Part shown: piece by piece, positions 5,434 to 27,820 of the stretch | Layout: each line of letters begins with the position of its first letter | Position numbering within the stretch: the first letter of the stretch is position 1 | Source of the DNA: Synechococcus sp. HK01-R | GTDB lineage: Bacteria > Cyanobacteriota > Cyanobacteriia > PCC-6307 > Cyanobiaceae | Direction: 5' to 3' | Assembly: GCF_014217855.1 (NCBI RefSeq) | Contig: NZ_CP059059.1 | Coordinates: 930,001 to 994,000, forward strand | DNA length: 64,000 nt | Notes under the pieces: generated by a model | Database searches by the model: none | Told to the model about the DNA's origin: nothing | The model's input: the letters and a program-made list of their open reading frames with translations, nothing else | Program-made: the position numbers and the translations under genes

Positions 5434-5589
5434 ATGTGTATTCTCACTAGGCTATTCTGCTGTCAAAGAGATGTGAGGTCGTCATCTTCCGGGTTTTACC
5501 TCCGACCCACAGACTCCAGACCCCATGCATATCTACTCGAAGGATTCGGTTGGCGCCCTGGTGGAGACGTTGTGGCCAGCCCTCATACA

Positions 5590-5748
5590 TCACCAACTGT
5601 ATCTGCATGCCTACACGATGGCTGGGAGGCTGAATTCAATCTGGTCCGCTTCCTTTGGAGGTACTTTCATGTAAGGCCACATAGCTCTATAGGAGTCAAA
5701 ACTCCCCAAGAGGTTCATGCTGAAACTGACCCTGTTCTTCTCGCTTAA
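5590..5748 (+). pseudogene. Integrase/transposase C-terminal remnant
   Basis: The last ~45 codons before the TAA at 5746 read like the tail of an rve-type (IS3-like) transposase: a short aromatic segment, then RPHSSIGVKTPQEV, which matches the common RPHSSLG-x-TPAE signature. The frame continues upstream to 5434 but that part does not look like transposase and no catalytic DDE core is left. It sits exactly between the GC-rich operon and the AT-rich genes, so it may mark the edge of an insertion. The call rests on one motif. Confidence 0.5.
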
Positions 5749-5869
5749 ACAAACGTTATCATGGGACAGAATTGTTCAACAAAAGCTTCCTACGCCACTC
5801 CTCTCATTTCCTCCCCTTGTTCGTTTGATTGCATTTCGATACATCCTCTAAAACACGACTTGCAGCTCA

Positions 5870-6793
5870 ATGAATAAGCCATCAATTGCTGTTGTTATTC
5901 CTACGCACGGTCGGTTGCATCAGACGAGAAAACTTGTTTCTTCAATCTTGTTTCAGACAATTCAACCTGCTCATGTGATTATATCTGATTCGAAGGGCGA
6001 TCCTCTTCTTAGCGAATATATTCGTAGTCTTAATTCACTGTCTTGCTCGATTGTCTTTCACTATCTTCCTCTGTCATCAGATAATTTTTGGACTGGCGCT
6101 GTTCGTCAATCTTTGATTGACCTTGTAAGTCTTTCTTCGCCTTTTGATTGTTTCTGCATCATGAATAACGATGTTGTGTTAAAGACGCGGGAAACATTCT
6201 CTGCTTTATCGCATTACTGTTGTGATTATCAAATTGTTGTCTCCCCTATCAATCTACTTGTGAAGACACAACAAGTTATTTATTCTGGAGCTCGTTCTGT
6301 TTTCCCACCCTTTGCGCTTTTTTATCCTCCATTCGTCGGCTCAGACTACTCTGTAATCTCAAACCTTTCAAACGTTCTTCAACCGATGGATGTCTTAGGT
6401 TTTCAATGCACTTTTGTGCCCGCTGAGGCTATTTATAGAAATATTTTGCCGGATGATATTAATCTTCCGCATTACCACGCTGATGGTGAATGGTGTCTTC
6501 GTCTTCATCGATTTGGTTATCCATCATTTACTTGCCTTTCGGTTTGTGTTGATCATGATAATACTTCGACGGGACCTGGTAATAACTTTTCCACTTCTAG
6601 CATGAATCCATATCTTTACTTCAAATTATTATTTGACATACGATCGCCTAGGCATCTGTTGAGTCGTTACAAATTTCACTGTTGTATTCTCCCTTTCTAT
6701 TTTATTCCATTAGCGATTATCTCCGATTTGCTTAGGTTTTTTCTATCCTACATACTCTTGATTCGTTTTCAGCTTTTCTCTTCTAATGATTAA
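5870..6793 (+). CDS. Glycosyltransferase family 2 protein
   Basis: A 307-residue GT-A fold transferase. The N-terminus IAVVIPTHGRLHQTRKLVSSIL is a canonical GT2 start. The metal-binding acidic motif appears as CIMNNDVVL (about residue 105; N-N-D rather than D-x-D), and an HADGEWCLRLHRFGY block lies at about residue 205, like the ED-x-D/W acceptor region. The last ~45 residues are strongly hydrophobic and may anchor it in the membrane. Codon use is clearly AT-rich compared with the upstream operon. It overlaps the following methyltransferase by 8 bp, giving a GT2-methyltransferase-amidotransferase transcription unit. Probable role: adding a sugar to the surface glycan. Confidence 0.83.
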   Translation: MNKPSIAVVIPTHGRLHQTRKLVSSILFQTIQPAHVIISDSKGDPLLSEYIRSLNSLSCSIVFHYLPLSSDNFWTGAVRQSLIDLVSLSSPFDCFCIMNNDVVLKTRETFSALSHYCCDYQIVVSPINLLVKTQQVIYSGARSVFPPFALFYPPFVGSDYSVISNLSNVLQPMDVLGFQCTFVPAEAIYRNILPDDINLPHYHADGEWCLRLHRFGYPSFTCLSVCVDHDNTSTGPGNNFSTSSMNPYLYFKLLFDIRSPRHLLSRYKFHCCILPFYFIPLAIISDLLRFFLSYILLIRFQLFSSND

Positions 6794-7676
6794 GTACGAC
6801 AATCATCAGTCAGAATGGGATCGAGTTCTCAGCGATCCGCATCGCGCTGCGGTCGGTGAGAGTTGGATGCATTCTGATACCCTAGATTCTTTTGCGCACA
6901 ATCGTCAACGTTCTCCCTTCCTTAAGCTTCTAAACTTTTTCAATTCTCCCAGCCTTCTAACCTTGGGAGATGGTCGTTATGGAAACGATGCTGCTTATTT
7001 TTATCATAAGGGTTTTAATGTTCATGCAACCGATATTTCTGATACCTTACTCTCTATTGGGAATTCAAGGGGGTTTATAGGTGATTTTTCCGTGCAAAAT
7101 GCGGAGTCAATTGGTTTTGCGGACCAGTCTTTTGACTTTATATTTGTCAAGGAAGCTCTTCATCATTGCCCGCGGCCTTTTCTGGCTATATCTGAAATGC
7201 TACGTTGTGCAAAGGTTGGTGTTTTCATTTCTGAGCCAAATGATTTGTTTGCTTCCATGTCACCATTTCTCCGAGCCCTCCTATTTTTGTATCGCTGTTT
7301 GAAATCTAAGCCTTACCCGCGCCATGCTCATGAGCCTGTTGGCAACTATATGTATTCTATATCGTATCGGGATATAGAAAAAGCTTGTATGGGCTTGCAT
7401 TATCATCACCTGGCTTTCTATCCGCTTAACACGACATATTCACCAGGATATGAATTTATTCGCATGAGTGATACTTCCTTAAGGTCTAGGTGTATTATTT
7501 TTCTTTTCAAGGCAAAGCTCTTCTTTTTGGATTTTCTTGTTCGGTTTCGGTTTATGCCTCCGTTGATTACCTGCGCTTTTATTTTTAAGGTTGAACCTCC
7601 TTCTCAATTGGTTATTCAAATGCAACGATATGGCTGGGTCTTCCCACAATTGCCTAAAAACCCTTATATTAACTGA
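6786..7676 (+). CDS. Class I SAM-dependent methyltransferase
   Basis: A 296-residue Methyltransf_11-type protein. The SAM-binding motif I region is degenerate (LLTLGDGRYGNDAAYF around residues 56-72), followed by a motif II acidic residue (HATDIS) and the motif IV region QSFDFIFVKEALHHC, which is typical of small-molecule methyltransferases. It starts inside the end of the GT2 gene (8 bp overlap) and is followed after 3 bp by the AsnB-like gene, so it should act on the same glycan or its nucleotide-sugar precursor. AT-rich like its neighbours, consistent with transfer as a block. Whether it methylates O, N or a carboxylate cannot be seen. Confidence 0.82.
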   Translation: MIKYDNHQSEWDRVLSDPHRAAVGESWMHSDTLDSFAHNRQRSPFLKLLNFFNSPSLLTLGDGRYGNDAAYFYHKGFNVHATDISDTLLSIGNSRGFIGDFSVQNAESIGFADQSFDFIFVKEALHHCPRPFLAISEMLRCAKVGVFISEPNDLFASMSPFLRALLFLYRCLKSKPYPRHAHEPVGNYMYSISYRDIEKACMGLHYHHLAFYPLNTTYSPGYEFIRMSDTSLRSRCIIFLFKAKLFFLDFLVRFRFMPPLITCAFIFKVEPPSQLVIQMQRYGWVFPQLPKNPYIN

Positions 7677-7679
7677 GTC

Positions 7680-9653
7680 ATGTGCGGTATTGCTGGCTTT
7701 AGCCTTTTTGAATCTGTAGAGTATCCCTCTTCTGGTTGGTATAATCATTATTTTGCTCGACTGTCTCACCGAGGGCCAGATGGTCACGGTTATTATCAAG
7801 ATTTTGCGTCCAATATTGGCCTAGTCCACACGCGTCTCTCTATTCTTGACCCTTCGGAAAATGGGCGCCAACCGATGCGCAGTCTAGATAATGACGTTGT
7901 TGTTACTTTCAATGGTGAGATTTATAATTTTTCTGCATTAAAGAAAGGCTTGGAAAGTCAGGGTTTCCTGTTCAAAGGATCATCTGATACCGAAGTTCTT
8001 CTTGCTTCTTATCTTGCTTGTCGTAATTCATTTGATGGTTCTTTTGATACACAGGCTTTCTCTGATTTCTTGAATCGCCTCAATGGTATTTTCGCTTTTG
8101 CGATTTGGGACAAGCGTTTTGATTCTCTTATATTAGCTCGCGACGCTTTTGGAGTCAAGCCTCTTTATTTTCAGGAATCGAGAGATGGTTTCTTTTTTGC
8201 TAGTGAGATCAAGTGTCTTGATACAGCGTATAGTGATGTTGATGTTGTTGCGCTTGAGCGTTATCTTACGTTTCTATGGAATCCAGGCCCAAGTACACCT
8301 GTTCGTCAGGTCGCTAAACTAGAGCCTGGCAACGCTATGGTCATTTCCCGGGGATTGATTCAAGAATACTTTTCTTGGTATCGGTTGTCATTTTTTAATC
8401 CCCTGCTGAATTCAACATCTATTCCTGATAAGGCCGAAGCTATTCACGGTTCTAGATCTTTCCTCCGTCAGGCCGTCCATCGCCAAATGGTCTCTGATGT
8501 GCCAGTGGGTGCCTTCCTTTCAGGTGGTCTCGATTCAAGCAGTGTCGTTGCTTTTGCGCAGGAAATTAATTCTGATCTTCAGTGTTTCACGATTAATGTA
8601 CGAAGCGATTCGAGTGAAGGTTTTTCTGATGACCTTCCTTATGCACAAAAAGTTGCACGTCACCTCGGTGTACCTCTGAACGTCGTTGATGTTGACGCTG
8701 CGCGTATGGCACATGGTCTTGAGGATATGGTTTATCAACTCGATGAGCCACTTGCCGACCCTGCTTCTTTAAACGTCTTACTGATCAGTCAGCTTGCTCG
8801 TGATCATGGTATAAAAGTCCTCCTATCTGGTGCAGGAGGTGATGATATCTTTACTGGATATCGTCGACACTTCGCCTTGCAATCCGAACGTTATTGGCGT
8901 TGGTTGCCACGACCTCTACGGATTCAGTTGCGCAATCTTTCTGCCCGACTACCCGTAACCTATTCCTCGTTTAGACGTCTTCGAAAAGCCTTTTCGGGTG
9001 CTCATCTAAATGGTGATCAGCGTCTCGTTCATTATTTTCGCTGGATTGATCGAGCCGATCTTCATGACTTGTTCACCCCTGCTTTCCGCCACGCCTTGGG
9101 TTCGACAATTGCTGAAGATCCAATGTTGGCATACTTAGCAGAGCTTCCATCAGAAACAGATCCACTTCATCGTATGTTGGCTCTCGAGCAACGTTTTTTT
9201 CTCTCTGATCATAACCTTAATTATACCGACAAAATGTCCATGGCAGCTGGTGTCGAAGTGCGTGTTCCTTTCTTGGATCGTGATTTGGTCGAGTTTTCTT
9301 CCCGCATTTCACCTCATTTTAAGCAGCGCGGTGGCCAGAGCAAATGGGTCCTTAAGAAAGCGATGGAACCCATTTTGCCTTATGATGTGATTTATCGTCC
9401 CAAAAGCGGTTTTGGTGCACCTTTGCGCTCCTGGTTGCGTTATGAACTCAAGGATTGGTTGTTCGACAATTTATCAACGGATCGATTGCGCCGCCGTGGT
9501 TTGTTCGATCCTCAGGCTGTTCACGGTTTAATTTCTTCTAATAGTGAGGGTGATGTTGATGCGAGTTACACCCTCTTGTCTCTTGCCTGCATTGAAGTCT
9601 GGTGTCGCCGTTTTATCGACCAACCCGCTCTGAATCTCTCTTCACATTCTTAG
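7680..9653 (+). CDS. asnB: Glutamine-dependent asparagine synthase-like amidotransferase
   Basis: A full-length (657 aa) AsnB-type enzyme. The N-terminal Ntn glutaminase domain begins MCGIAGF, so Cys2 becomes the catalytic N-terminal cysteine after Met removal, and contains SHRGPDGHGYY. The synthetase domain holds the PP-loop ATP site SGGLDSSSVVAF starting at S281 and a GAGGDDIFTGYRRH block. In surface-glycan clusters these proteins often amidate uronic acids (WbpS-like) rather than make free asparagine. A UDP-sugar dehydrogenase upstream (975-2189) would supply such an acid, so uronamide formation is my preferred inference. It is the last gene of the AT-rich unit beginning at 5870 and has no start-codon ambiguity. 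Confidence 0.88.
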   Translation: MCGIAGFSLFESVEYPSSGWYNHYFARLSHRGPDGHGYYQDFASNIGLVHTRLSILDPSENGRQPMRSLDNDVVVTFNGEIYNFSALKKGLESQGFLFKGSSDTEVLLASYLACRNSFDGSFDTQAFSDFLNRLNGIFAFAIWDKRFDSLILARDAFGVKPLYFQESRDGFFFASEIKCLDTAYSDVDVVALERYLTFLWNPGPSTPVRQVAKLEPGNAMVISRGLIQEYFSWYRLSFFNPLLNSTSIPDKAEAIHGSRSFLRQAVHRQMVSDVPVGAFLSGGLDSSSVVAFAQEINSDLQCFTINVRSDSSEGFSDDLPYAQKVARHLGVPLNVVDVDAARMAHGLEDMVYQLDEPLADPASLNVLLISQLARDHGIKVLLSGAGGDDIFTGYRRHFALQSERYWRWLPRPLRIQLRNLSARLPVTYSSFRRLRKAFSGAHLNGDQRLVHYFRWIDRADLHDLFTPAFRHALGSTIAEDPMLAYLAELPSETDPLHRMLALEQRFFLSDHNLNYTDKMSMAAGVEVRVPFLDRDLVEFSSRISPHFKQRGGQSKWVLKKAMEPILPYDVIYRPKSGFGAPLRSWLRYELKDWLFDNLSTDRLRRRGLFDPQAVHGLISSNSEGDVDASYTLLSLACIEVWCRRFIDQPALNLSSHS

Positions 9654-9859
9654 GAGTTTGGACCCTCTACAACTGGAGGAATGCCTGGCGGTTGCAGGGA
9701 GAGGCAGGGCTGATTCAAAGTCTGTCCCAGGCTCTCTTGCCGGGGCTGTTAACATGGGTTGAGTTCGGCGGAATCGCCTCCTCTATATGCTCGAAAGCGC
9801 ACCCGCCGCAACCGATCTCGACCTGATCAGCTAATCGAGGTCGACCCCCCTATGCGCGG
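9654..9859. other. Intergenic stretch between AsnB-like gene and ISAs1 remnant
   Basis: No convincing gene. The sequence turns abruptly from AT-rich to GC-rich around 9660-9710, which looks like the right edge of the transferred block. Short ORFs here have no recognisable motif, and I could not identify ISAs1 terminal repeats. Confidence 0.5.
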
Positions 9860-10923
9860 ATGCGGCGCGGGGTTCGGTTTCCAGCCTGGTATCTGCTGCT
9901 GGTGGCCGTTTTCGGAATCCTGAGTGGCTGCCAGAGCTTGCGGGATCTGCAGCGCTTTGCCATTCACCACCACGCCGTGCTCACCGAGGCGCCTGGCGTG
10001 GAGCTGCGGCTGCCGCCATCGGATTCCTCGTTTCGTTACTTCTTCCACTAGGTGGACGTGGCGGCGCTCTGCGCGGCGATCCGTGACTGGACGATTGCCC
10101 AGATCCCAGACGAAGCAGCGGATCTCGATCAGCTGGTCTGTGACGGTTAGACCTTGAGAGGCTCGATTCAGCCCACAGCCGGTGGTGGAACGGCGTTCAT
10201 TGCCCAGGTCACGCTGTACTCCGCCGCTCTGGGCGTGGCGATCAGCCAGGCTTGCTACGCCACCGGCGAAAGCCACGAGCGGGCGGTGCTGCGCCAACTG
10301 CTCGGCGAGCTCGATCTTGAGGGTGTGCTGATCCAGGCGGATGCGCTCCATACCCAGCGACCGTTTTTCGGCAGCTCTAGGAGCAGGGAGCCGACTTCCT
10401 CCTGACCGTGTAGCCGAAGGCTTCTCCGAAGGAGTGAGCCATCCAGAAGACGCTGCACCGCCAGATCCGCAGCCAGTTCCAGGGCAAGCGCAGAATCCCT
10501 TTCGTGGCAACGGATCACGAGGTTGGCCATGGCCGCGATATCACCTGGACGCTGCGCGCCAAGCAGGCTCTCGAGCACATCAGCGAGGCCTGGATCGGCA
10601 CCAGCTGGACCGTGGAAGTCACCGAGCCAGCGGCACCCGTGACGGCAAGGCCTTTCACGCCACCCACGTGTTCCTGACGAGCCTGCGCACCACGCCAGAA
10701 GCGCTGCTGCAACTGGCGCGACCGCTGGAGCATTGAGGCCTGGCACTGGATCCGTGACAACCAGCTCCATGAGGATGCCCACCGCTACCGGGGCAATGGC
10801 GCTGGAGTGATGGCCACCCTGCGCACGGCAGCGATGAACCTGCTGAGGCTGGCTGGCTTCCGCTCGATCCGGACTGGCTTACAGGCAGTGATGCACGACA
10901 TCACGGCATTGCGTGCAAGGTAG
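9860..10923 (+). pseudogene. Degenerate ISAs1-family transposase
   Basis: Read across frames, the segment follows ISAs1 (H-repeat type) transposases. The N-terminal membrane-like start RFPAWYLLLVAV comes first, then a VDVAALCAAIRDW stretch, the catalytic-aspartate region LEGVLIQADALHTQ, and a C-terminus SIEAWHWIRD...DAHRYRGNGAG ending HDITALRAR and the TAG at 10921. In-frame TAG codons at about 10051 and 10148 and further frame changes after about 10370 destroy it. At the second site the codon occupies the position of the usual DGK-TLRGS lysine. The element is dead and its terminal repeats were not identified. Confidence 0.85.
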
Positions 10924-11112
10924 CGCACCCCTCTGAGTGGTGTAACTCAGGTGGTCCTATGACCCTTTCCGGAGGGTGAACAGGTGCAATCAGAAGATGA
11001 CTGCCCGGGACTGATTGTTCAGCTCCGTTCATCCACTTTGAACCCTGATCGCTGAATGTGCAACTCAACGATCGTGGAGTTCTGTATGGAATCTGCAAGA
11101 TGCTGATGTGAT

Positions 11113-12257
11113 TCAGTTGATGGCTGCAACCGTCTGATCTGCCGCATCACCATCGGTGAGCTCCAGCGGCTCTTCTGGCTCTGGAATCTTGGCCATGGTG
11201 GCCTCAGAGAAGAAGCGACGACGCTCCAGCTGCCATTCCTCCTGTTGCTCCAGATCTTGCGCCAGTGCGTCTGCGGGAAGTGCAGGAAGGCCAGGACGTC
11301 GTCTCTGGCAGCCTCCATCACCGGCACAGCGGAGGGGAACTGCTTTCGCAGCATCTCAGTGACCCGCTGCCAGTGGGCGCGGACCTGATCGGGTGCCTGT
11401 ATCACGAACACCGCTTTCATTGCAGCAGCCACCATGTCCTGACCCGCCTTGGGCACGTGGGAGAGCAGGTTGCGCAGGAAGTGCACCCGGCAGCGCTGCC
11501 AGCAGCAGCCCTGGAACATGCGTTTGATCGCCGCGGTCAGCCCCAGGTGGGCATCGGAGATCACCAGGCGGGTGCCATTGAGTCCTCGCTCCTTGAGGCT
11601 GCCCAGGAACTGGCGCCAGAAGCCCTCCGCCTCGCTGTCGCCCACGGCGATCCCGAGCACCTCGCGGTAGCCGAGGGCATTGATGCCGATCGCCACCACA
11701 ACGGCCCGCGACACCACCTGCAGGTTGCGGCCGAGCCGGCCAGGGAGATAGGTGGCATCGAGGTAGACGTACGGAAAACGGGCATGGTCCAGCGGCCGGC
11801 CCAGGAAGGCCTTGACCTGCTCGTCCAGGCCAGCGCAGATGCGGCTCACCTCGGATTTGGAGATGCCGCTGGCACCGCCCAGCGCCTCCACCAGAGCGTC
11901 GACCTTGCGGGTAGAGATTCCACCGGTGTAGGCCTCCATCACCACGGCGTAGAGGGCCTTGTCGACCCTCCGGCGTGGCTCAAGCCAGTTGGGGAAGACG
12001 CTGCCCTGGCGCAGCTTTGGGATGGCGAGGGTGAGGTCGCCCACCTGGGTGGTAAGCACCCGCTCGCGGTAGCCGCTGCGGTGCGTGGCGCGTTCATCAG
12101 GCCGGCGCTCGTGCAGCTGCGCACCGATGGCAGCTGAGACCTCGGCCTCCAGCAGATCCTGGAAGCCCCGCCGCACGATCTCCGGGATCAGGTCGCAAGC
12201 GGTGGTGCCCTCCATGAGCAGAGCCAGCTCGGAGGCGCCACTATGGGTGAGGGTCAT
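11113..12257 (-). pseudogene. IS256-family (mutator-type) transposase with internal deletion
   Basis: The start MTLTHSGASELALLM at 12257 and most of the DDE core are intact: YLDATYLPGR with the first Asp, LVISDAHLGL with the second, and a CRVHFLRNLL block. After THWRKIWS the expected NPLERLNKEIKRRTNVVG segment containing the catalytic Glu is missing, and the frame shifts. In the other frame the true tail resumes (EEWQLERRRFF to QTVAAIN) and ends at the TGA at 11113-11115. The deletion joint falls in a short sequence that would occur at both ends of the missing piece, suggesting microhomology-mediated loss. It cannot encode an active transposase. Confidence 0.88.
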
Positions 12258-12348
12258 GGTCTGTGTTCGGTTTGGTGGTACTGCTCCGAACAGGGTCACA
12301 GACCTGCCCACCCATTGCTACATCACAGACGTGAGTGAGGCGAGCCGT

Positions 12349-12371
12349 CAGCCCCGGCTACGCCGGGGCTG
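12349..12371. repeat. Perfect 10-bp stem, 3-nt loop hairpin in IS256 end
   Basis: CAGCCCCGGC and its exact complement flank TAC. It lies between the transposase start and the right terminal repeat, where a hairpin could block transcription or translation entering the transposase gene from outside. There is no T-run, so it is not a canonical terminator. Confidence 0.6.
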
Positions 12372-12467
12372 ATGCCCCCGAGTTACACCACTTGCTGGGA
12401 CGCTGCTGCTGGCAATGGCGCGGCGGCAGCCGGAATCCACTCCTGGCTGAACTTTTAATCAGCCCTG

Positions 12468-12745
12468 GCCGAGAAGCAGCAGTTCATCGATGACCAGCGT
12501 CAAAGAAATGCCGTTGAAGGCAAGATCGCACAAGGAAAGCGGCGCTTTGGACTGGGCCTGATTCGTGATAAGCTCCCTGCAACAAGGGTTTAACCATTGC
12601 ACTGAATGTTCTGGTGATGAACCTAGAGAAGCTACTGGAGCTTCTTTTTGTCTTTTTTGCGTACTGGCTCCAGCTTCTCTTCGGCAATGAACCAGAGAAG
12701 GGTTCACGTTTCGCGTATCTGAGTAATCAGGCGGCCCCCGCATGA
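12468..12745 (+). pseudogene. IS5-type transposase C-terminal remnant
   Basis: Two frames together read as the tail of an IS5-family transposase. The first is EKQQFIDDQRQRNAVEGKI followed by QGKRRFGLGLIRDKLPAT. After a frame change at about 12591 it continues TIALNVLVMNLEKLLELL into a hydrophobic end. The upstream catalytic part is absent. This copy differs from the IS5-type element at 14.7 kb, so at least two such elements have visited the locus. Confidence 0.72.
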
Positions 12746-13064
12746 ACTACAAGGCTCCAGGCTATTCGTGCTCAGATCTTTGATGGGTTGGGCGTGGGTT
12801 CACTTTCTCAGGAAGCCCTACTTGGACCTTTGCATGCCTCATTGTCTCAGTCAGATCCGTTGGTGTCACTGCGATCTCGTCTGATTTAGGGGCGTTTTTG
12901 GAAAGCCGCGATAGGCTCTATGTGAAACAGCTTCACTGGAGGCAAAATTCCACAAGAGGCCTACGATATAACCGAATCCTGTTCCTTTCGCCCGGCGCTC
13001 ACCGTGTTAGCTGCTAGAACTGTCCAATAAAAGCCATCAACCTCACTAAGCCTTTTACAACTGT
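12746..13064. other. Gene-free spacer upstream of the PGT-GNAT gene
   Basis: About 320 bp with no ORF of note. It contains the far end of the IS5 remnant and, in its AT-rich last ~150 bp, presumably the promoter of the gene at 13065. I cannot identify a convincing -35/-10 pair. Confidence 0.4.
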
Positions 13065-14405
13065 ATGATTTATTTCTTTTTTAAGGCAATCTGCGACCGC
13101 ATCATTGCTTTAATTGCTTTACTCCTTCTTGCTCCGATGCTGCTAGCAGTGGCTCTACTGGTGCTTGTGAATCTGGGATCGCCTGTTTTGTTCCACCAGC
13201 AGCGAATCGGTTACCGCGGCAAGGCCTTCTGGTTAGTAAAGTTTCGGTCAATGACTGATGATCGTGATTCATCGGGAGCTCTTTTAGCAGATACCTATCG
13301 TCTTAAACCTTTTGGCTGCTGGTTGCGTTCTACCTCACTGGATGAATTGCCAGAGCTTTGGAATGTACTCAAGGGCGAAATGAGTCTGGTGGGGCCTAGG
13401 CCACTGCTAATGCGATACCTGCCCTTTTTTAGCGAAAGAGAACTATCTCGATTCAAAGTTCTTCCTGGGATGACTGGGTATGCTCAAGTTCAGGGCAGAA
13501 ATTTGTGTGGGTGGGATCAGCGTTTGGCAGCAGATGTCAAATATGCAGTTGGTTATAACTTGTGGATTGATTTGCGTATTTTACTGAAAACAGCTTTCGT
13601 GGTCACTCGGGGCCATGGCGTCTTAGTAGACCCAAGTCTCTCCATGAAAGATTTGGATACAGAGAGAGCTCATTCTCTTCATGTTAAACAAGTGCCTAGT
13701 AGTAAAATAATCAGTGCTGGAAAGCTGATTCAGTCAGAAATTTCAGATGAAATTAAAGATGCGACGATTTTGTCAGCAGTCAACTTCCCTTTTTTTCTTA
13801 AACAGGTGCTGCTCAAAGAGTCGAAGTTGATGGGTGTTTTTAGGGGGCAAGAGATGCTTGCCGCTATTTGCTATATTGTACATGATGCATTTTTTCATGT
13901 CAATTACTTTGCCGTCTTGCATTCTGAGAGATCAAAAGGTATCGGGAAAAAACTGATCAACTATCTAAAGTTTCTTTCTGGTGGTCTTGCTGTAACCCTG
14001 CACGTTGATTCAAGAAACCATGACGCAATACGATTCTATTCTCGCAATGGATTTAGGGAAGTAAGCAGGCAGTCAACTTGCATTTTGAGCGCACATGGGT
14101 CTGGCCGTAATTCATTGGAAGATTATATTCAAATAATTAATTCCGAGCAGTATAAAGTTTACGGAATTTCTCATTCAATTATAGACGGAATCAAAGTGGG
14201 AATTATTGATGGTAGATTCGTGAATCTGCCTTCTGATGCGCCTCCGCGTGTTTTAGAAAAATGCCTCATGTTACCCGATTATCTTAAAATTAGATGTCCT
14301 GTTTCAATATTTAAATCTCTTTTAAATGAAAGGCCTGCTTTTGTGAACGTATGCGCTACATATGATATTATTCTAATGCAATGGACTCCATTTGCGGGCT
14401 CGTAA
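13065..14405 (+). CDS. Phosphoglycosyltransferase (PglC-type) fused to a GNAT acetyltransferase
   Basis: A 446-residue two-enzyme protein. Residues 1-190 form a small monotopic phosphoglycosyltransferase: an N-terminal membrane-inserting helix (CDRIIALIALLLLAPMLL), KFRSMTDD, the catalytic Asp-Glu pair in TSLDELPELWN, SLVGPRPLL and a GMTGYAQVQGRN loop. Such enzymes transfer a sugar-1-phosphate from a UDP-sugar to undecaprenyl phosphate. From about residue 215 a GNAT domain follows, with the acetyl-CoA P-loop R289-SKGIGKK and a VTLHVDSRNHDAIRFYSRNGF block typical of motifs A/B. The last ~110 residues match nothing I recognise. Neisserial PglB has the same two activities fused, but with a left-handed beta-helix acetyltransferase. 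AT-rich compared with the CapD and aminotransferase genes it probably works with; flanked on both sides by dead IS elements. Confidence 0.85.
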   Translation: MIYFFFKAICDRIIALIALLLLAPMLLAVALLVLVNLGSPVLFHQQRIGYRGKAFWLVKFRSMTDDRDSSGALLADTYRLKPFGCWLRSTSLDELPELWNVLKGEMSLVGPRPLLMRYLPFFSERELSRFKVLPGMTGYAQVQGRNLCGWDQRLAADVKYAVGYNLWIDLRILLKTAFVVTRGHGVLVDPSLSMKDLDTERAHSLHVKQVPSSKIISAGKLIQSEISDEIKDATILSAVNFPFFLKQVLLKESKLMGVFRGQEMLAAICYIVHDAFFHVNYFAVLHSERSKGIGKKLINYLKFLSGGLAVTLHVDSRNHDAIRFYSRNGFREVSRQSTCILSAHGSGRNSLEDYIQIINSEQYKVYGISHSIIDGIKVGIIDGRFVNLPSDAPPRVLEKCLMLPDYLKIRCPVSIFKSLLNERPAFVNVCATYDIILMQWTPFAGS

Positions 14406-14671
14406 TTGTTCCATTAGGGGCTTCTGACATCACTCTGCCTGCGTTAAATTCTTGCTTAAGAGGCTGATGAAAAGCTAGTCAGTTTCGAGAGAATCGAACA
14501 ATTGCAGTGAGTGTATGCGCGGCCTGCAGGTGTGTACCGGTCCCCCTGGCTGCCCAACACATCTGCGAGACCACTTGTTAGTGAACGGGTCTCACTTGAT
14601 TAGGGAGACTCTGGAAAACCAGGGCCATTCGCGGGACAATGTCCCTGTGATCGCAGGCCAAGACTGGGTTG
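14406..14671. other. Spacer before IS5-type transposase
   Basis: No gene. The part after about 14600 probably belongs to the left end of the following IS element; it contains a small GGGACAATGTCCC palindrome (14633-14645). I could not match left and right terminal repeats. Confidence 0.4.
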
Positions 14672-15651
14672 ATGGGCGGCAAACAGCTCGGCTTCTTGGA
14701 TTACGAGCTCACCACGGCCAAGAAGCAGACTAAACGGGAGAAGTTTCTCTCTGAGATGGAGGTCGTTGTGCCATGGCAGGCGCTGATCGACTTGATCGAG
14801 CCCCACTACCCAAAGACGAGCAAGAAAGGCGGTAGGCCTCCCTATCCGTTGGCCACCATGCTGCGGATCCACCTGTTGCAGCAGTGGTATTCCCTCAGCG
14901 ATCCGGCCATGGAAGAGGCCCTGATCGAGGTGCCCACCATGCGCCGCTTTGCCGGCATCGAGTTGATCAGCGACCGGATCCCTGATGAGACGACGATCCT
15001 GACCTTCCGCCACCTGCTGGAGAAGCACGATCTGGGCCAGCAGATCTTTGAGACGGTCAAAGCCCATCTCAGCACAAGGGGCATGACGATGCGCCAAGGC
15101 ACGATCGTCGATGCCACCTTGATCGCGGCACCCAGTTCCACCAAGAATAAAGAAGGGAAGCGCGATCCCGAGATGCACCAGACCAAGAAGGGAAACCAGT
15201 GGTATTTCGGGATGAAAGTCCATATCGGCGTCGACAAGGACTCCGGCCTGATCCATTCAGTCGTCGCCACAGCCGCCAACGTGCACGACCTCACCCCACG
15301 GCTGAGCTGTTGCATGGCGATGAGGAGGTCGTCTACGGCGACGCCGGCTACCAGGGCATCACTAAACGACCTGAAATGGCGGGCCATTCAGCAGTGTTTC
15401 GGGTGGCGATGCGACCAGGCAAACGCCGAGCGCTACCTTACACTCCAGAAGGAAGGCTTGAGGATCTGATCGAGGCTGCAAAGGCACACGTCCGCGCCAA
15501 GGTTGAGCACCCATTCAGGGTGATCAAACAACAGTTCGGCTTTCAAAAGACCCGACTGCGTGGCCTGGCCAAGAATCGATGCAAGATTAATGTGATGGCC
15601 GCACTGACCAATCTGTTTCTCGCTCGTGGCCATCTACTGGCTGCAGCATGA
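14672..15651 (+). pseudogene. IS5-family transposase, frameshifted
   Basis: The N-terminal two thirds (from ATG 14672) carry IS5 features: [37 protein letters not shown], the first catalytic Asp in [17 protein letters not shown] and [14 protein letters not shown]. After VHDLTP at about 15297 the frame changes. The second frame supplies [18 protein letters not shown] with the second Asp, then HPFRVIKQQFGFQKTRLRGL with the catalytic Glu region, to the stop at 15649. The joint lacks a recognisable slippery heptamer, so I read this as a mutation rather than programmed frameshifting. Otherwise it is nearly complete and therefore fairly recent. Confidence 0.88.
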
Positions 15652-16353
15652 ACACAGAACTGGTGTGGCTGTTGGGATGAACAGGGTGCCAAAAAAGAAG
15701 GCAAAGAGCCCGTAATCAGCTATCCAGGAGCTGATTCAAGTCTCAATGCAACACAAAGGCCACGTCAGACAACTTTTGGCGGCCCCGCGCCGCTCAAACC
15801 GGCGTTGCCCAGAGCTTCCCTAGCGTCAACCTGACGTTGTCTGGATCAATGAACCGCCAGATGACGCAACCGCAGAGCAAGAGTTACTATTTCAACAGGT
15901 CGCCTGAAGAGGCGCCGACAGCGACATCTTTCCTGAAATTCACCGCAATCCCACTGACCACTCCATGCCAAGAGCCACAGCAAGCATGCCTGTGACACAC
16001 TTTGAATCAACCTTGGAGTCTGATCCGCGAGAAGCTTGCTTTTACCCAGGTTGCCACCGAAACACTGAATAAGCTGCTTATGACGCTCCAGAAGCAGCTG
16101 GAACAGTATGTTGACCTTTTGCGACCTTTCTACGCTCCCTAGTGATCAATTTGCGCGGTTAAAATGTTCGCACTCTGCCACCGAAGCCTCAGATAGCTGC
16201 GGCGTGTTGATTGATTGCTCGACTCCGATTCTATCTTCTCGGTAGTCCCTATTCTCGGTAGTCCCTAAATTTTCAAGTTTCACATGTCTCCTATGCTCTT
16301 CCAGCGTTTCAGCTCTTTATTCCTTTTGACCGGTTGCTTGTTGTTCTCCTAAA
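15652..16353. other. 700-bp gene-poor spacer
   Basis: No ORF with recognisable content on either strand. The first half is GC-rich and may be eroded coding sequence; the last ~200 bp are AT-rich and lead into the next gene. It contains the 15-bp tandem repeat listed separately. I see no RNA gene. Confidence 0.45.
16236..16266 (+). repeat. Two-copy 15-bp direct repeat, period 16
   Basis: TTCTCGGTAGTCCCT occurs at 16236-16250 and again at 16252-16266. It lies about 90 bp upstream of the FemAB-like gene and could be a duplicated regulatory site or simple slippage. Confidence 0.7.
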
Positions 16354-17367
16354 ATGATTACTGAAATTATCTCTGATAAGACTCGATGGAAATATATCCT
16401 AAAACAATTAAGATCTTATGATTATTCGCATTCATTTGACTACCATGAGATTAGTAAAAATAATGGCGAGGGTGATCCTTTGCTATTCACCGTCTTTGAT
16501 GATCGCCATAGAGTGCTGGGTTGTTGGCCAACTCTGAGGCGTAATATACAAAATACAGTCTACCATGATCTTTCTGGCGCGTATGGCTATGGGGGGCCGT
16601 TGTTTATGAAAGGGGTTGATTCTAGTCTAATTCTGGAATGCTTGCTTAGTGAGATGAAGAACTATGGCGCTATTTCTTTGTTTTCGAGAATTCATCCGCT
16701 TTTTGCAGATTACTTAGATGCTGGATATTATCGAAGCGATCACGACAAAATTGGAGATGTCGTTGTCATTGATATTAGGCCAGGGCAGCCCATCTTGCAG
16801 TCTTATCGTGGCTCTCATCGTAGGGAAATTATTAACGCCAGGCAAAAAGGACTGCGGCTTGAAGTTGATTGGCAATGTTCCCGGCTAATGGAATTTATTC
16901 GTATCTACGTAAATGCAATGCGTGACCTAGGTGCGCGCGACTACTATTTTTTCAGCGAGAGCTATTTTGAGCAGCTTGTCGCTGTTAATGACTTTAAGCC
17001 TTTTATCATTTTCGCGTCTTTTGAGGGAAAGGTGATAGCGGCTTCTATGTTTGTTGTTACGAATAAAATAATGCAGTACTATTTGAGTGGATCTTGTCGT
17101 GAGTTTCGGGGTTTGTCTGCTTCCAAGTCGATAATAGCTACAGCGCACGAGCTGGCGGAGAGCATGAACCTCGATCATTTAGTTTTAGGTGGTGGTCTTG
17201 GTGGCGCTAGGGACTCGCTTTTCAAGTTTAAGGCTGGCTTCTCGGGTGCGATCAAGCCCTTTTATGTTACTAAAATGGTATTCTCGGAGCGTATCTATTG
17301 CGAACTTTGTGAGTCCAAGCAGCATCTTCGCGCCGATAACTGCTTCTTTCCGTTGTATCGGCAATAG
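16354..17367 (+). CDS. FemAB-like GNAT acyltransferase
   Basis: A 337-residue protein with the tandem GNAT architecture of FemX/FemAB and related acyltransferases. The second domain is clearest: SHRREIINARQKGLRLEV, a FASFEGKVIAASMFVVTNK strand pair, YYLSGSCREFRGLSASKSII and LVLGGGLGGARDSLFKFK, the last two being hallmarks of the group. Known members add amino acids from charged tRNA to lipid II, but relatives inside polysaccharide loci are thought to acylate amino sugars. With an aminotransferase (17614) and a 4,6-dehydratase (18777) just downstream, N-acylation of a glycan amino sugar is the likeliest job. AT-rich, like the genes at 5.9-9.6 and 13.1 kb. Confidence 0.75.
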   Translation: MITEIISDKTRWKYILKQLRSYDYSHSFDYHEISKNNGEGDPLLFTVFDDRHRVLGCWPTLRRNIQNTVYHDLSGAYGYGGPLFMKGVDSSLILECLLSEMKNYGAISLFSRIHPLFADYLDAGYYRSDHDKIGDVVVIDIRPGQPILQSYRGSHRREIINARQKGLRLEVDWQCSRLMEFIRIYVNAMRDLGARDYYFFSESYFEQLVAVNDFKPFIIFASFEGKVIAASMFVVTNKIMQYYLSGSCREFRGLSASKSIIATAHELAESMNLDHLVLGGGLGGARDSLFKFKAGFSGAIKPFYVTKMVFSERIYCELCESKQHLRADNCFFPLYRQ

Positions 17368-17613
17368 ATTATTTATTTAATGTTTTATTTTTACCGTACC
17401 TCCTGTGAGAGATTCATTTGGTACTGCTTTGCTTCTCTTATTTGGCCCCGCGCCCTTTTCCGAGTAGAAAAATATTGCTGTTCAGCCGCCTGCTTAGAAA
17501 GTCGCTAAATATTTTGGCTACATCGGCAAGACTGCCCGATGGCATTATAGTTTTTGCCTTGCCAGTGCAGGTGTTGCCCCCACCTAATTTATCACTTTTG
17601 TCCTCATTATATC
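17368..17613. other. Spacer upstream of aminotransferase gene
   Basis: AT-rich at the left and turning GC-rich at about 17610. No gene or clear promoter was recognised. The change in composition coincides with the start of the aminotransferase gene. Confidence 0.4.
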
Positions 17614-18780
17614 GTGACCCTCGCCCCCTGGCCCCATTTCGATGCCGATCAGATCGACGCTGCAAGCCAAGTGCTCGCCTCCGGCAAGGTGAACACCTGG
17701 ACCGGCCAGGAAACCACCGGGTTTGAGCAGGAGTTCGCCCATTGGTGCGGTACCGCCCATGCCATCGCCATGGCTAACGGCTCTCTCGCACTCTCGTCCG
17801 CCTATCTTGCGATTGGTCTTGGGGAAGGCGATGAGCTGATCACCACCCCGCGCACGTTCATCGCCACAGCCTCAAGCGCTGTGCTGCTTGGCGGCAAGCC
17901 GGTGTTCGCCGATGTGGATGCTGAGTCCGGGGCTATCACAGCCGAAACGATCGCGCCGTTGATCACCCCCCGCACCAAGGCCATTTCCGTGGTGCACCTG
18001 GGAGGCTGGCCCGCCGACATGCCCGCGATTCTCGAATTGGCCCAGGCCCATGGAATCGCTGTTATTGAAGACTGCGCTCAGGCCCATGGCGCCAGCATCC
18101 ACGGTCAGTCCGTCGGCAGCTTCGGTGATTTGGCCGCCTGGAGCTTCTGCCAAGAAAAAATTATTTCCACTGGCGGAGAAGGCGGCATGGTCACTACCAA
18201 CCGAGCCGATCTCTGGGATTCGATGTGGGCCTTCAAAGACCACGGCAAAACCCACGAGGCGGTTTACGGCTGCGAACACCCCCCCGGCTTTCGCTGGTTG
18301 CACAAGCGCTTCGGCTCCAACTTCCGCCTCACCGAACTGCAGAGCGCCATCGGCCGCATCCAGCTCCAGCGCCTACCCGAGTGGACCGCCGCCCGCACCC
18401 GCAACACCCTCCTGCTCGCCGATGCACTGGCCGATTGCTCCGCCGTGCGTGTGCCTCTGCCGCCAGAAGGGATCACTCACGCCTGGTACAAGTTCTATGC
18501 CTTTGTGAGGCCTGAAGCATTAGCCGATGGCTGGAGTCGCGATCGCATCCTCAGCGAGATCGCATCCCTGGGATACCCCGCCCTCTCTGGCAGTTGCAGT
18601 GAGATTTATCTGGAGAAGTGCTTCCAGGAGGCTGGCTTGGTACCTGCGCAGCGGTTGCCTGTGGCCCGTGCGCTGGGGGAGACCAGTTTGATGTTTTTGG
18701 TGCACCCCACCATCATCCCCGAGCAGATGGCTGGCTATGCAGAGGCTGTGCGGACGGTGGTGAAGTGCGCTTGCCGGTGA
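17614..18780 (+). CDS. DegT/DnrJ/EryC1/StrS family sugar aminotransferase
   Basis: A PLP-dependent aminotransferase that aminates a keto-sugar nucleotide. The PLP lysine is K182 within AWSFCQEKIISTGGEGGM. Other family marks are the VIEDCAQAHGA aspartate that contacts the pyridine nitrogen, MANGSLALSSAYLAIG for phosphate binding and the C-terminal WYKFYAF strand. I prefer the GTG at 17614 because the preceding 20 residues of a longer frame do not resemble the family. It overlaps the capD-like gene by GTGA (18777-18780), implying translational coupling. In PglE/PglF-type pathways exactly this pair makes UDP-4-amino-4,6-dideoxy-GlcNAc. Confidence 0.88.
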   Translation: MTLAPWPHFDADQIDAASQVLASGKVNTWTGQETTGFEQEFAHWCGTAHAIAMANGSLALSSAYLAIGLGEGDELITTPRTFIATASSAVLLGGKPVFADVDAESGAITAETIAPLITPRTKAISVVHLGGWPADMPAILELAQAHGIAVIEDCAQAHGASIHGQSVGSFGDLAAWSFCQEKIISTGGEGGMVTTNRADLWDSMWAFKDHGKTHEAVYGCEHPPGFRWLHKRFGSNFRLTELQSAIGRIQLQRLPEWTAARTRNTLLLADALADCSAVRVPLPPEGITHAWYKFYAFVRPEALADGWSRDRILSEIASLGYPALSGSCSEIYLEKCFQEAGLVPAQRLPVARALGETSLMFLVHPTIIPEQMAGYAEAVRTVVKCACR

Positions 18781-20690
18781 GATCTGAGTCATTGCGCCAG
18801 CTCGTTTGGTTGTCTCCGCTCGCCCGCCGGCTGCTGCTGATCGGCATCGACGCCCTGCTGCTGCCATTGGCGGTGTGGCTCAGCTTTTGGCTGCGGCTGG
18901 CCCATCCGCTCCATCCCAGCTTTCAGGCTGCCGGGTTGTGGTTGCTGCCGGCGGTGCTGCTGGTGGGCCTGCCTCTGTATGCCCTCACCGGGCAATACAA
19001 GGGCCTCACGCGCTACGTCGGTAGCCGCGCTCTTTACCGGCTCGCTGGTCGCAATGGACTGTTGGTGCTGCTGTTGGCGGGCCTTGGCGTGATCTTGCGT
19101 CTGCCGATGCCGCCTCGCAGCAGCTGGATCCTGCTCTGGTTGCTGCTCACCGGGTTCACCGGAGCAGTGCGTTTTGCCTTGCGAGATCTGCTCCTGTCCC
19201 TCCGCTCGGTGAGCCAGAAGCAGATGGTGCGTGTGGCGATCTACGGCGCCGGTGAGGCCGGTGCCCAGCTCGCCGCGGCTCTGCGCCTGGCCGGCAACCA
19301 TCAGATCGTGTCCTTTCTCGATGATGCACCGTCGCTTTGGCAGCGCTCGATCAACGGCATTCCGATCCAGCCGCCCCAGGTGCTGAGTGAGATCCAGGAG
19401 CAGCTCGATCAGGTGTTGCTGGCGATTCCCTCGCTGCCCCGCAGTGAACGCCGCCGCATCGTGGCTGAGTTGCAACGCCAGGCGATCCCGGTGTTGCAGA
19501 TCCCCTCGGTGGACGACCTCACCTCCGGCCGGGCCCGCATTGATGCGCTCCGCCCGGTCGCCATTGAAGACCTGCTCGGCCGTGATACCGTGCCGCCCGT
19601 GCCGGAGCTGCTCGGTCCTTGCCTGCGTGATGCGGTGGTGTGCGTCACCGGCGCCGGTGGCTCGATCGGTTCGGAGCTCTGCCGCCAGATCCTGCAGCTG
19701 TTTCCCAAAACGCTGATCCTGCTCGAGAGCAGTGAACCGACGCTCTATGCCGTGGAGCAGGAGCTGCGCCAGCAACTGCCTGCATCAGTGGCCCTGCTGC
19801 CGGTGCTCGGTAGCGCCGCCGATCCGGCGCTGGTGCAACGGCTGTTTGCCGGCCATGGCGTGCAGACCGTGTTCCATGCCGCCGCCTACAAACACGTACC
19901 CCTGGTGGAAGCGAATCCGCTGGCTGGCCTCGCCAACAACGTGGGCTCCACCCGGGTGGTGTGTCAGGCCGCGATTGCCGCGGGCGTCAGTGAACTGGTG
20001 CTGATCTCCACCGATAAGGCCGTGCGTCCCACCAATGTGATGGGCGCCAGCAAGCGCCTGGCGGAGCTCGTGGTGCAGGCGTCAACATTGGAGCTCTTGC
20101 AGAGTGCCAAGGGCTCTGGCCATCCCCGCACCCGACTGGCGATGGTGCGCTTTGGCAATGTGCTGGGTTCGTCGGGTTCGGTGGTGCCCCTGTTCCGTAA
20201 ACAGATCGCCGCTGGCGGGCCGATCACCCTCACCCACCCGGAGATCATCCGCTACTTCATGACAATCCCGGAAGCGGCCCAGCTGGTGCTCCAGGCCGCC
20301 ACCCTCGCCAAAGGCGGTGATTTATTTCTGCTCGACATGGGTGAACCGGTGCGCATCAAAGACCTGGCCGAGCAGATGGTGCGCCTCAGTGGCCTTTCGC
20401 TGCGCGATGCCCAGAACCCCAATGGTGAGATCACCATCACCTGCACCGGCCTGCGCCCCGGCGAGAAGCTCTACGAAGAGCTGCTGATCGACGCCGAATC
20501 CGAACCTACCCAGCACCCCCTAATCTTCCGCGCCCAGGAACGAGCGCTGCCGCCAGAGGTGCTTTGGCCTCGTCTCGATGTGCTCGACGCCGTCATCGCA
20601 GCCCAGGATGTGGAGGCTGCCCTTGCTCTCCTGGCGGAGCTGGTGCCGGAGTGGCAGCGGGGGGATGGGGCAAAGACAGCCGAGAGCTGA
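18777..20690 (+). CDS. capD: Membrane-bound UDP-GlcNAc 4,6-dehydratase, CapD/PglF type
   Basis: A 637-residue polysaccharide biosynthesis protein with four hydrophobic N-terminal segments (about residues 15-140), a Rossmann-like nucleotide-binding middle domain (IYGAGEAGAQLAAAL) and a C-terminal SDR dehydratase domain with VTGAGGSIGSE from about residue 289. The catalytic set T412, M422, K426 (STDKAV-x-PTNVMGASK) has the same spacing as the T-M-K set of Campylobacter PglF. Predicted product is UDP-4-keto-6-deoxy-GlcNAc, to be aminated by the upstream enzyme. The GTG at 18777 overlaps the upstream stop. A shredded second copy of this gene lies at 28327-28958. Confidence 0.9.
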   Translation: MRSESLRQLVWLSPLARRLLLIGIDALLLPLAVWLSFWLRLAHPLHPSFQAAGLWLLPAVLLVGLPLYALTGQYKGLTRYVGSRALYRLAGRNGLLVLLLAGLGVILRLPMPPRSSWILLWLLLTGFTGAVRFALRDLLLSLRSVSQKQMVRVAIYGAGEAGAQLAAALRLAGNHQIVSFLDDAPSLWQRSINGIPIQPPQVLSEIQEQLDQVLLAIPSLPRSERRRIVAELQRQAIPVLQIPSVDDLTSGRARIDALRPVAIEDLLGRDTVPPVPELLGPCLRDAVVCVTGAGGSIGSELCRQILQLFPKTLILLESSEPTLYAVEQELRQQLPASVALLPVLGSAADPALVQRLFAGHGVQTVFHAAAYKHVPLVEANPLAGLANNVGSTRVVCQAAIAAGVSELVLISTDKAVRPTNVMGASKRLAELVVQASTLELLQSAKGSGHPRTRLAMVRFGNVLGSSGSVVPLFRKQIAAGGPITLTHPEIIRYFMTIPEAAQLVLQAATLAKGGDLFLLDMGEPVRIKDLAEQMVRLSGLSLRDAQNPNGEITITCTGLRPGEKLYEELLIDAESEPTQHPLIFRAQERALPPEVLWPRLDVLDAVIAAQDVEAALALLAELVPEWQRGDGAKTAES

Positions 20691-20915: not shown

Positions 20916-20998
20916 TGTGACTCGAGAGCGATGGTCAGGACCCTTGACGACCCGGTGTTACTCAGTCACACTAAGTTTTGCTTGTGCGTGTTGTTCTA

Positions 20999-21244
20999 GT
21001 GGTCATCAAGAGTTCTGTGTCTCTCCGCGAGGATCAGCATGCGTTTGCCAAGGCCCTGGTGGGCGCCGGTCGCTTCCCTTCGGTGAGTGCTGTGCTGCAG
21101 CAAGGGCTTGAGCTCCTGCAACAGCAGGAGGCGGATGCTCAAGCCGATCGAGCCGCTTTGCAGGTCTTGCTGCAGCAGCGCGCTCGTGGGGAATTTATCT
21201 CTGCCGATCAACTGCGTGCCAAGTTGGCGGCGCAGCCCCGATGA
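20999..21244 (+). CDS. parD: ParD/CopG-like antitoxin
   Basis: A small acidic/helical protein (81 aa from GTG 20999). The N-terminus VIKSSVSLREDQHAFAKALV and VGAGRFPSVSAVLQQGLELL match the ribbon-helix-helix start and second helix of ParD antitoxins, followed by a Q/A-rich toxin-binding tail. It is expected to bind its own promoter as a dimer and neutralise the next product. Its stop overlaps the toxin's start in an ATGA (21241-21244), the usual TA arrangement. A longer TTG start at 20978 is possible but adds residues unlike the family. Confidence 0.83.
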   Translation: MVIKSSVSLREDQHAFAKALVGAGRFPSVSAVLQQGLELLQQQEADAQADRAALQVLLQQRARGEFISADQLRAKLAAQPR

Positions 21245-21609
21245 GCGAGGCTCCGTGGACGGTTGTCTTCGCTGCAGAGGCCATCAACGATCTGTTGCTG
21301 ATCACTGAGTACCTCGCTCAGGCCTACTGCAGCTTTGGGGAATCACCGGCCGAGGCTGATCGTCACGCACAGGCGCGCATCGAGGTGATCATTGCTGCCG
21401 CTGAACGGTTGGCCACCGCTCCTTGGCGCGGAGAATCGCACGATGATCTGATGCCTGGCCTTCGACATCTGGCTCTCGATCGCGCGGTCTATTGGTTTCG
21501 GCCACGCGCGCAGCATCGCGAGATCCAGGTGCTTGCTGTGTTCTTCGGTGGCCAAGATCACCAGCGCAGCATGTTGGTTCGCCTGCTGCAAAAGAGTTCC
21601 GAGGTCTGA
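21241..21609 (+). CDS. parE: ParE/RelE-superfamily toxin
   Basis: A 122-residue protein of the RelE/ParE fold: WTVVFAAEAINDLLLITEYL (strand 1 and helix), PWRGESHDDLMPGLRHLALDRAVYWF, and a C-terminal IQVLAVFFGGQDH strand, all typical of ParE. It lacks the catalytic residues expected for a ribosome-dependent RelE RNase, which favours the gyrase-targeting ParE branch; that distinction is inference. Coupled to the antitoxin by ATGA. Frame and length look intact, so it may be functional. Confidence 0.83.
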   Translation: MSEAPWTVVFAAEAINDLLLITEYLAQAYCSFGESPAEADRHAQARIEVIIAAAERLATAPWRGESHDDLMPGLRHLALDRAVYWFRPRAQHREIQVLAVFFGGQDHQRSMLVRLLQKSSEV

Positions 21610-21823
21610 GCCTGCCTTGTTCACTGGCTACGCCAAGGCTGTGCGGTCGGGGCCCTCGTGGGTAGGGTTTGGTTCTTCGGCATCCAGTGCTGGATCACCC
21701 TGGTCCTGGGCGGCCTGCTCGCGCTGATCTCTCTTTTCACGTCGTACAACCATGTCCACCTCCCCTACCTCGGCGCCGTTGAGCTGCTTCCCGCGTGGAT
21801 GGTTTTCAGCCTGAAAACGTAGA

Positions 21824-21841
21824 GACGTGTGTCTACACTGG
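21824..21841 (+). promoter_or_regulatory. Possible vapBC operator/promoter
   Basis: An imperfect palindrome with GTAGA and TCTAC arms precedes the antitoxin start and overlaps a TACACT -10-like hexamer. A similar TGTCTACAC string precedes the second VapBC module at about 26284. Assignment is by position only. Confidence 0.35.
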
Positions 21842-21863
21842 TGGCCGCGAGTGGGGTGATGTC

Positions 21864-22169: not shown

Positions 22170-22191
22170 GGCCAATCCGGGGGATCGCTCA

Positions 22192-27658: not shown

Positions 27659-27701
27659 TTGGGCGAGCTGTCCACCGAAGCCCTTGGGGCCTGGGTGTGG
27701 A

Positions 27702-27815
27702 TCAGCGCTGTTCCTCCAAGTAGCGCCGCAGGTGCGCTGGAAGCACGCGCTGCAGAGCCTGCTCGCGAGCCATCCAGGCCGTCGCCACGATTTCCAGCTG
27801 ATCAGGGTTGAGTGG
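27702..27815 (-). pseudogene. C-terminal remnant of an unknown protein
   Basis: The minus strand reads PLNPDQLEIVATAWMAREQA then LQRVLPAHLRRYLEEQR before a stop at 27702. The helical, charged pattern looks like real protein sequence, but the frame upstream is cut off by the duplicated segment at 27821. I do not recognise the family. Confidence 0.35.
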
Positions 27816-27820
27816 TAGCC

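Follow-up and report, generated by a model that had tools for sequence, protein, structure and literature searches.

The window, the whole stretch of 64,000 nucleotides of Synechococcus sp. HK01-R that was analysed, contains a single open frame of 446 amino acids with an ATG start at positions 13065 to 14405 of the forward strand, which joins a phosphoglycosyltransferase (PGT) to an acyltransferase of the GNAT superfamily. The gene lies within a segment without homology to the same-genus genome G007 (5340 to 17531), in which low-GC genes and insertion sequence (IS) elements stand in the place of most of a PGT gene and pglD. A GT4 glycosyltransferase gene precedes it on the forward strand (4120 to 5433); in G003, G007 and G011 the orthologue of this gene forms a single fusion with the resident PGT. 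The segment also carries a Mutator-family transposase gene on the reverse strand (11019 to 12311; PF00872, E = 8.9e-106) and, on the forward strand, a DDE transposase in two frames downstream of the fusion gene (14669 to 15651) and a low-GC FemAB/Acetyltransf_6 acyltransferase gene (16354 to 17367; PF02388, E = 2.6e-7; PF13480, E = 8.1e-6). Further along the forward strand are a probable 57-bp 3' remnant of an ancestral pglD (17532 to 17588), colinear with the pglD ends of loci L114, L117 and L188, a DegT/PglE-like aminotransferase gene (17554 to 18780; PF01041, E = 2.2e-88), the true start of which is probably some codons later, and a CapD/PglF-like UDP-sugar dehydratase gene (18618 to 20690; PF02719, E = 3.9e-112). 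A 99 % identical copy of window positions 15402 to 15823 occurs at G000:C1:1445801-1446222, which points to recent mobility close to the fusion gene. At 20978 to 22614, small genes in two adjacent pairs resemble toxin-antitoxin modules, one member having a PIN domain; a heme oxygenase gene near 48.7 kb is in keeping with a picocyanobacterium; and fragments of a second PGT (27027 to 27479) and a second capD (28330 to 28907, two frames), together spanning 27027 to 28907, look like decayed copies.

The first domain of the fusion protein (residues 1-187, positions 13065 to 13625, forward strand) is a PglC-like monotopic PGT by its Pfam and PglC matches. Bac_transf (PF02397) covers residues 7-181 (E = 1.9e-54, above the gathering cut-off), the motifs KFRSM at residue 59, D93-E94 and GMTGYAQ at residue 135 are present, and the nearest solved sequence relative is PglC of Campylobacter concisus (8e37; E = 4e-47, residues 4-187). 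With a Bac_transf domain, a catalytic DE, PRP and KF(R/K)(S/T)M, the domain fits the monotopic PGT class. The GNAT core (residues 251-336, positions 13815 to 14072, forward strand) is matched by Acetyltransf_7 (PF13508; residues 266-332, E = 3.5e-9) and Acetyltransf_1 (PF00583; residues 251-330, E = 5.8e-9), both above the gathering cut-off. The acetyl-CoA loop of GNAT enzymes has the consensus R/Q-x-x-G-x-G/A, and the fusion protein has RSKGIG at residue 289; its motif B, NHDAIRFYSRNGF at residues 318-330, contains N318, Y325 and F330, which are invariant in a 20-row alignment.

An AlphaFold2 model of residues 196-446 gave pLDDT block means of 83-94 across residues 246-335, with low values on either side, and in the Foldseek / VIA-align comparison it matched the GNAT protein 1tiq (E = 1.1e-9) and RimI 2cnm (Z = 15.7, rmsd 3.2 over 141). 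The domain has both the predicted GNAT fold and the acetyl-CoA loop that define the superfamily, and the GNAT fold of residues 251-336 is well supported. A false GNAT call was ruled out, since Pfam, fold prediction, structure matches and motifs concur. RimI, N-terminal acetyltransferases and PaiA are all among the best structural matches, so that the substrate is not readable from the fold, and the PseH profile TIGR03585 gave a score that is not significant (12.8 bits, E = 0.091, below the cut-off of 93.1 bits). The full-length model had three Foldseek matches at E <= 0.001, all of them PglC, with 8e37 at E = 3.5e-13; the rows below these, with 4zcf at E = 0.031 and integrase cores among those from E = 0.27 onwards, fall short of significance, and the GNAT domain was modelled badly there because its alignment had PGT rows only.

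The C-terminal tail (residues 337-446, positions 14073 to 14402, forward strand) is without a family match: the last 110 residues alone matched nothing in Pfam or PHROGs, and against 291 genomes they gave five weak matches besides themselves (E 0.008-0.08). Tail pLDDT was mostly below 50 in the model of residues 196-446, as against block means of 70-84 over about residues 371-440 in the full-length model. The GC content by codon position (0.45/0.37/0.27, against 0.36/0.26/0.45 in the +1 frame) has the pattern of the neighbouring low-GC genes; the tail thus looks coding, and a non-coding tail was rejected. An IS-derived tail was rejected as well: the other genomic copy of the downstream IS aligns only from window position 14600, and the tail is therefore not a piece of the IS. 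Relatives of the GNAT domain and tail were sought in plasmids (17 records at E <= 0.01, none covering 80 %), in phages (none found) and in viral contigs (16 candidate stretches, none confirmed). The original prediction had described this frame as a small PGT with KFRSM, DE pair and GMTGYAQ, a GNAT domain with an R289-xx-GIG loop and a tail of about 110 residues of no known family; all three parts are borne out, with the PGT motifs at the predicted places, and the separate profile and structure check of the second half that it had proposed confirmed the GNAT domain and left the tail without a match. By eye, internal start codons between 13644 and 13830 have no GGAGG-like stretch upstream, but there are weak purine runs before 13653, 13827 and 13830; separate translation of the GNAT domain from an internal start retains a slight probability.

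In the same-genus genomes G003 and G007, a GT4-PGT fusion gene is followed by pglD, degT and capD, and in two further genomes of the genus, G014 and G018, as well as in G437 of the same family, the order is PGT-PglD-DegT-CapD with the PGT unfused. The PglD-like protein of L114 consists of PglD_N plus hexapeptides by Pfam, and a close DegT orthologue (E <= 1e-100) is present in 10 of 31 same-genus genomes, including the window's own. Colinearity between the window and G007 runs from base 31 to 5339, close to where the GT4 part ends, and resumes at 17532 to continue across DegT and CapD (DNA identity 79 % and 84 %). Between them G007 has the PGT and pglD except for its last 57 bases, and the window has 12.2 kb with transposases, the PGT-GNAT gene and the FemAB-type gene; gene GC in this segment is 36-47 %, compared with a window mean of 61 %. 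At the level of sequence, the alignment shows that the segment replaced most of the PGT and pglD. The same-genus loci at L114:7355-9247, L113:8237-10132 and L115:6317-8209 have GT4 and PGT in one frame of about 630 amino acids, so that loading and later sugar transfer may be coupled in those genomes.

The 57 bases at 17532 to 17588 aligned to the 3' ends of sister pglD genes with scores of 31 (L114), 26 (L117), 36 (L188) and 20 (L112). Simple base shuffles reached these scores 0, 1, 0 and 23 times per 1000, respectively, the best L114 shuffle scoring 30 against the observed 31, and three control loci without PglD scored 22 (L115), 15 and 19. The pglD gene was probably once present and removed together with the resident PGT, a loss that is less than certain because of the L112 result and the L115 control score. 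Compared with L117, DegT has a dN of 0.053 and a dS of 0.57, and CapD a dN of 0.060 and a dS of 0.446; compared with G007 and G018, the two proteins are 88.7-90.5 % identical over the compared codons, with dN/dS of about 0.08-0.13. Judged by these rates, degT and capD are under purifying selection.

No NeuD/PglD-type protein was found elsewhere in the genome with one PglD query, a search that a very different enzyme could escape. The seven PglD matches of the genome correspond to five proteins: GlmU, LpxA, CysE and LpxD, each above its own NCBIfam cut-off, and a gamma-carbonic-anhydrase-like protein below its cut-off. All five score below the NeuD/PglB/VioB cut-off, above which the sister PglD lies, and a remote PglD serving the pathway was rejected on this ground. 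That the genome would be without another PglD is well supported. If acylation of the 4-amino sugar persists, its enzyme most likely comes from the new segment.

The reading favoured here, with moderate confidence, is that the fusion gene encodes a bifunctional monotopic PGT, in which the GNAT domain would acylate a UDP-4-amino sugar and the PGT of the same polypeptide would then load it on undecaprenyl phosphate. CapD and DegT, assigned by homology, would make UDP-2-acetamido-4-amino-2,4,6-trideoxy-hexose; the GNAT domain would acylate the 4-amino group of the sugar, most likely with acetyl taken from acetyl-CoA; and the PGT domain, to judge from its intact catalytic residues, would hand the sugar-1-phosphate to undecaprenyl phosphate. 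By synteny, the fusion gene arrived on a foreign segment, which took the place of a resident PGT and of PglD, a beta-helix acetyltransferase, between GT4 and degT, in one or more events.

The genes occupying this position were surveyed in the best 80 of at least 582 relatives by PGT similarity and in 15 kin loci from within the genus, the family or the class, the loci being picked by likeness to PGT or DegT and not at random. Among the best 80 of at least 582, PGT and then DegT, on the same strand and within 4.5 kb, were found in 33 loci, and the pair was absent in 47; the genes between them in these 33 loci included a PglD-type gene in 29, ATP-grasp in two (one with a HAD gene) and nothing labelled in two. 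The slot in the 15 kin loci held PglD in eight, ATP-grasp in two, a formyltransferase in one, FemAB in one and an unlabelled gene in one (L193, with a weak PglD match), and two had no PGT-DegT pair. The slot genes of L114, L115, L116, L118 and L120 were identified by Pfam and the others labelled by phmmer to these, and the ATP-grasp, formyltransferase and FemAB seeds came from kin loci that are themselves counted in the tally. The survey shows the PGT-slot-DegT-CapD locus to be an exchange site, at which the acylating enzyme (PglD, ATP-grasp, formyltransferase, FemAB or GNAT) varies and the sugar-making pair stays.

Several individual slots have features of their own. ATP-grasp genes are found at L115:8169-9880, in L036 and at L120:11758-12717, being PylC-like in L115 and L120 and accompanied by a HAD gene in L115 and L036; all three resemble an unfused PglB2. 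In L120, a same-genus genome, a standalone GNAT gene (Acetyltransf_3, L120:11228-11761) adjoins the ATP-grasp gene upstream of DegT and CapD. The formyltransferase gene at L116:9148-9984 suggests that the sugar of that genome is a 4-formamido sugar. Acyltransferases of the FemAB type are repeatedly found next to PGT and/or DegT, namely in the window (16354 to 17367), L118, L220, L223, L224 and L228, and may be a further 4-N-acylation module; in L224 and L228 a gene of about 300 amino acids, which is PhyH in L228, stands between PGT and FemAB. L204 contains a neisserial-type PGT-PglD fusion followed by degT and capD, and its second half matches the 'Pilin glycosylation protein' 4m98, presumably gonococcal PglB, at E = 5.8e-115.

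Because FemAB-type genes occupy the slot elsewhere, acylation could fall to the FemAB-type protein of the window, whose gene stands before degT and after the fusion gene. It would then be the 4-N-acyl (perhaps aminoacyl) transferase that replaced PglD, and the GNAT domain would acylate a different amino sugar or an intermediate further along the assembly of the same glycan. This division of labour is credible but unlikely. The order in L118 is PGT-FemAB-DegT, and FemAB-type loci of about 4 kb include DegT in 10 of 18 cases, PGT in six and both in three (one of which, L226, is the same place as L118), but the FemAB proteins of these 18 loci are only 26-31 % identical to that of the window and score better with the L118 seed, and the DegT proteins encoded next to them are only remotely similar to that of the window (E about 1e-28 to 1e-37, weaker and split in L231). 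An IS, moreover, separates the fusion gene from the FemAB gene in the window, and the physical fusion to the PGT favours GNAT over FemAB.

The PGT domain itself is divergent. The catalytic or near-universal residues K59, R61, D93, E94 and PRP are retained, and the fusion PGT was compared with 41 slot-type PGTs, a group assigned by hand that leaves L120 (ATP-grasp slot, very divergent PGT) outside and in which L193 has no full-length PGT row. Of the positions that at least 85 % of this group share, it agrees at 58 and departs at 20. The slot-type residues replaced are H130, Q126 and F197 (41 of 41 each), N143 (40 of 41), R128 (39 of 41) and W159 (37 of 41); the fusion PGT has L197 where 41 of 41 have F, K159 where 37 of 41 have W, and A75 where 33 of 41 have P. 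UDP-diNAcBac PGTs are described as recognisable by the loop motif GLLP, the aromatic box and a Phe at the C-terminus (PMC10942596). The loop proline and the C-terminal Phe of this signature are missing from the fusion PGT, alignment column 197 being read here as that Phe; for the aromatic box, K159 in place of W is at most suggestive. The PGT that had been predicted as complete is whole in its catalytic core, but the C-terminal Phe and other slot-type residues are missing. In a quick tree the fusion PGT fell outside the clade of seven kin PGTs and had no strongly supported placement. Because of its departure from the slot-type signature, the sugar of the fusion PGT may not be bacillosamine.

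A changed sugar, with which the loss of slot-type residues fits, and the tethering of the GNAT domain to a membrane-bound domain would suit a reversed order of reactions as well, in which loading by the PGT comes first, on the free 4-amino sugar, and the GNAT domain acylates the lipid-linked sugar afterwards at the membrane. WcfS of Bacteroides is reportedly an example of a PGT using the free 4-amino sugar. Such an order is quite improbable here, and it runs against the neisserial PglB pathway, in which acylation is described as coming first (PMC6959607).

A second PGT-GNAT fusion was sought in several genome sets, which overlap in part. Among the matches listed for 59 other genomes, none extended past residue 224; with residues 201-446 as query, 33 of 385 other genomes had matches and none covered the tail; 44 of 398 genomes matched at E <= 1e-50, none past residue 197, and 81 of 267 at E <= 1e-35, none past residue 223. 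The 72,556 plasmid records searched included 1,034 with a match and none covering 80 %. A fusion to an unlike GNAT would surface only as a long frame, and the 13 long-frame regions examined (4 + 9) contained no PGT-GNAT by phmmer and C-terminal length. No description of a PGT-GNAT fusion was found in the literature (titles and abstract openings), and a prior listing is possible in O'Toole 2021, said to be a survey of monotopic PGT fusions, or in Anderson 2023, reportedly the paper on the diNAcBac motif. The original prediction had proposed looking for the same fusion beside capD and DegT genes in picocyanobacterial genomes; PGT-slot-DegT-CapD loci do occur in relatives, and no second PGT-GNAT was found in the sets searched. 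Its proposal of a convergent analogue of PglB holds in that PGT and GNAT share one frame, that the fusion occupies the slot of PglD in same-genus genomes and of the PglD half in L204, and that no alternative PglD was found, but recurrence did not emerge.

The fusion gene is known from the sequence of one genome, and because a single genome carries it, a sequencing error at the domain joint is possible. Such an error, or a chance fusion from IS-driven rearrangement with little or no acyltransferase function, would make the GNAT domain or the whole gene a relic. The surrounding IS elements, the single example, the tail of no known family and the drift of the PGT are in keeping with a relic, whereas the PGT catalytic residues and both GNAT motifs are intact and the frame is open, with coding composition through to its end; a relic is considered improbable.

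With PGT joined to GNAT in the slot of PglD, and no other PglD found in the genome, the gene is best taken as a third kind of bifunctional enzyme, next to PglB with its beta helix and PglB2 with its ATP-grasp domain. A class of bifunctional monotopic PGTs (Bi-PGT) has been described in which a domain is fused to the PGT core at its N- or C-terminus (PMC10942596), and by domain architecture the fusion protein would fit this description, its extra domain being C-terminal to the PGT core. The fuller proposal is that a GNAT was captured by a PglC-like PGT as a third, independently evolved acyltransferase-PGT fusion type, which displaced both the resident PGT and PglD, altered the first sugar of the cell's surface glycan and/or its 4-N-acyl group, and carries an added C-terminal domain of unknown fold; the chances of this are evenly balanced.

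Neisserial PglB has the same domain order as the window fusion, PGT and then acyltransferase, but its second domain is a left-handed beta helix and not a GNAT. This second domain has been called an aminotransferase for gonococcal PglB (PMC6133551) and an acetyltransferase elsewhere (PMC6959607, PMC11130364); the latter reading is followed here and agrees with the match of L204 to 4m98. The neisserial-type L204 retains the C-terminal PGT motif GEATM..F.G, which the window fusion lacks, and is followed by degT and capD, whereas an IS and the FemAB gene precede degT in the window. PglB is described as an acetyltransferase/PGT and PglB2 as an ATP grasp/PGT, the two being exchanged by recombination (PMC11130364). 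PglB2 likewise joins a PGT to an alternative acyl-transferring domain, an ATP-grasp domain in place of GNAT, and its known product is GATDH. Campylobacter PglC is homologous to fusion residues 4-187 and shares the DE pair, PRP and KF(R/K)(S/T)M, but it is a PGT core alone, and the window PGT deviates at conserved slot-type residues; pglC is described as rescuing an epsL deletion in Bacillus subtilis (PMC10653937). The PglD/NeuD-type acetyltransferase has the same genomic slot as the fusion and an unrelated fold. PseH, described as a GNAT used as a separate protein, acetylates a UDP-4-amino sugar at N4 (PMC7910423); by analogy the proposed chemistry would be within reach of the fold, but the window GNAT has no significant match to the PseH profile. 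PglB and PglB2 are precedents for coupling the N-acylation of a sugar to its membrane loading through enzyme fusion. If yet another, unrelated acyltransferase fold has entered this coupling, selection for the coupling, beyond mere inheritance, would be suggested, and the variation of the slot is a genomic rule that could predict the N-acyl group starting a bacterial glycan.
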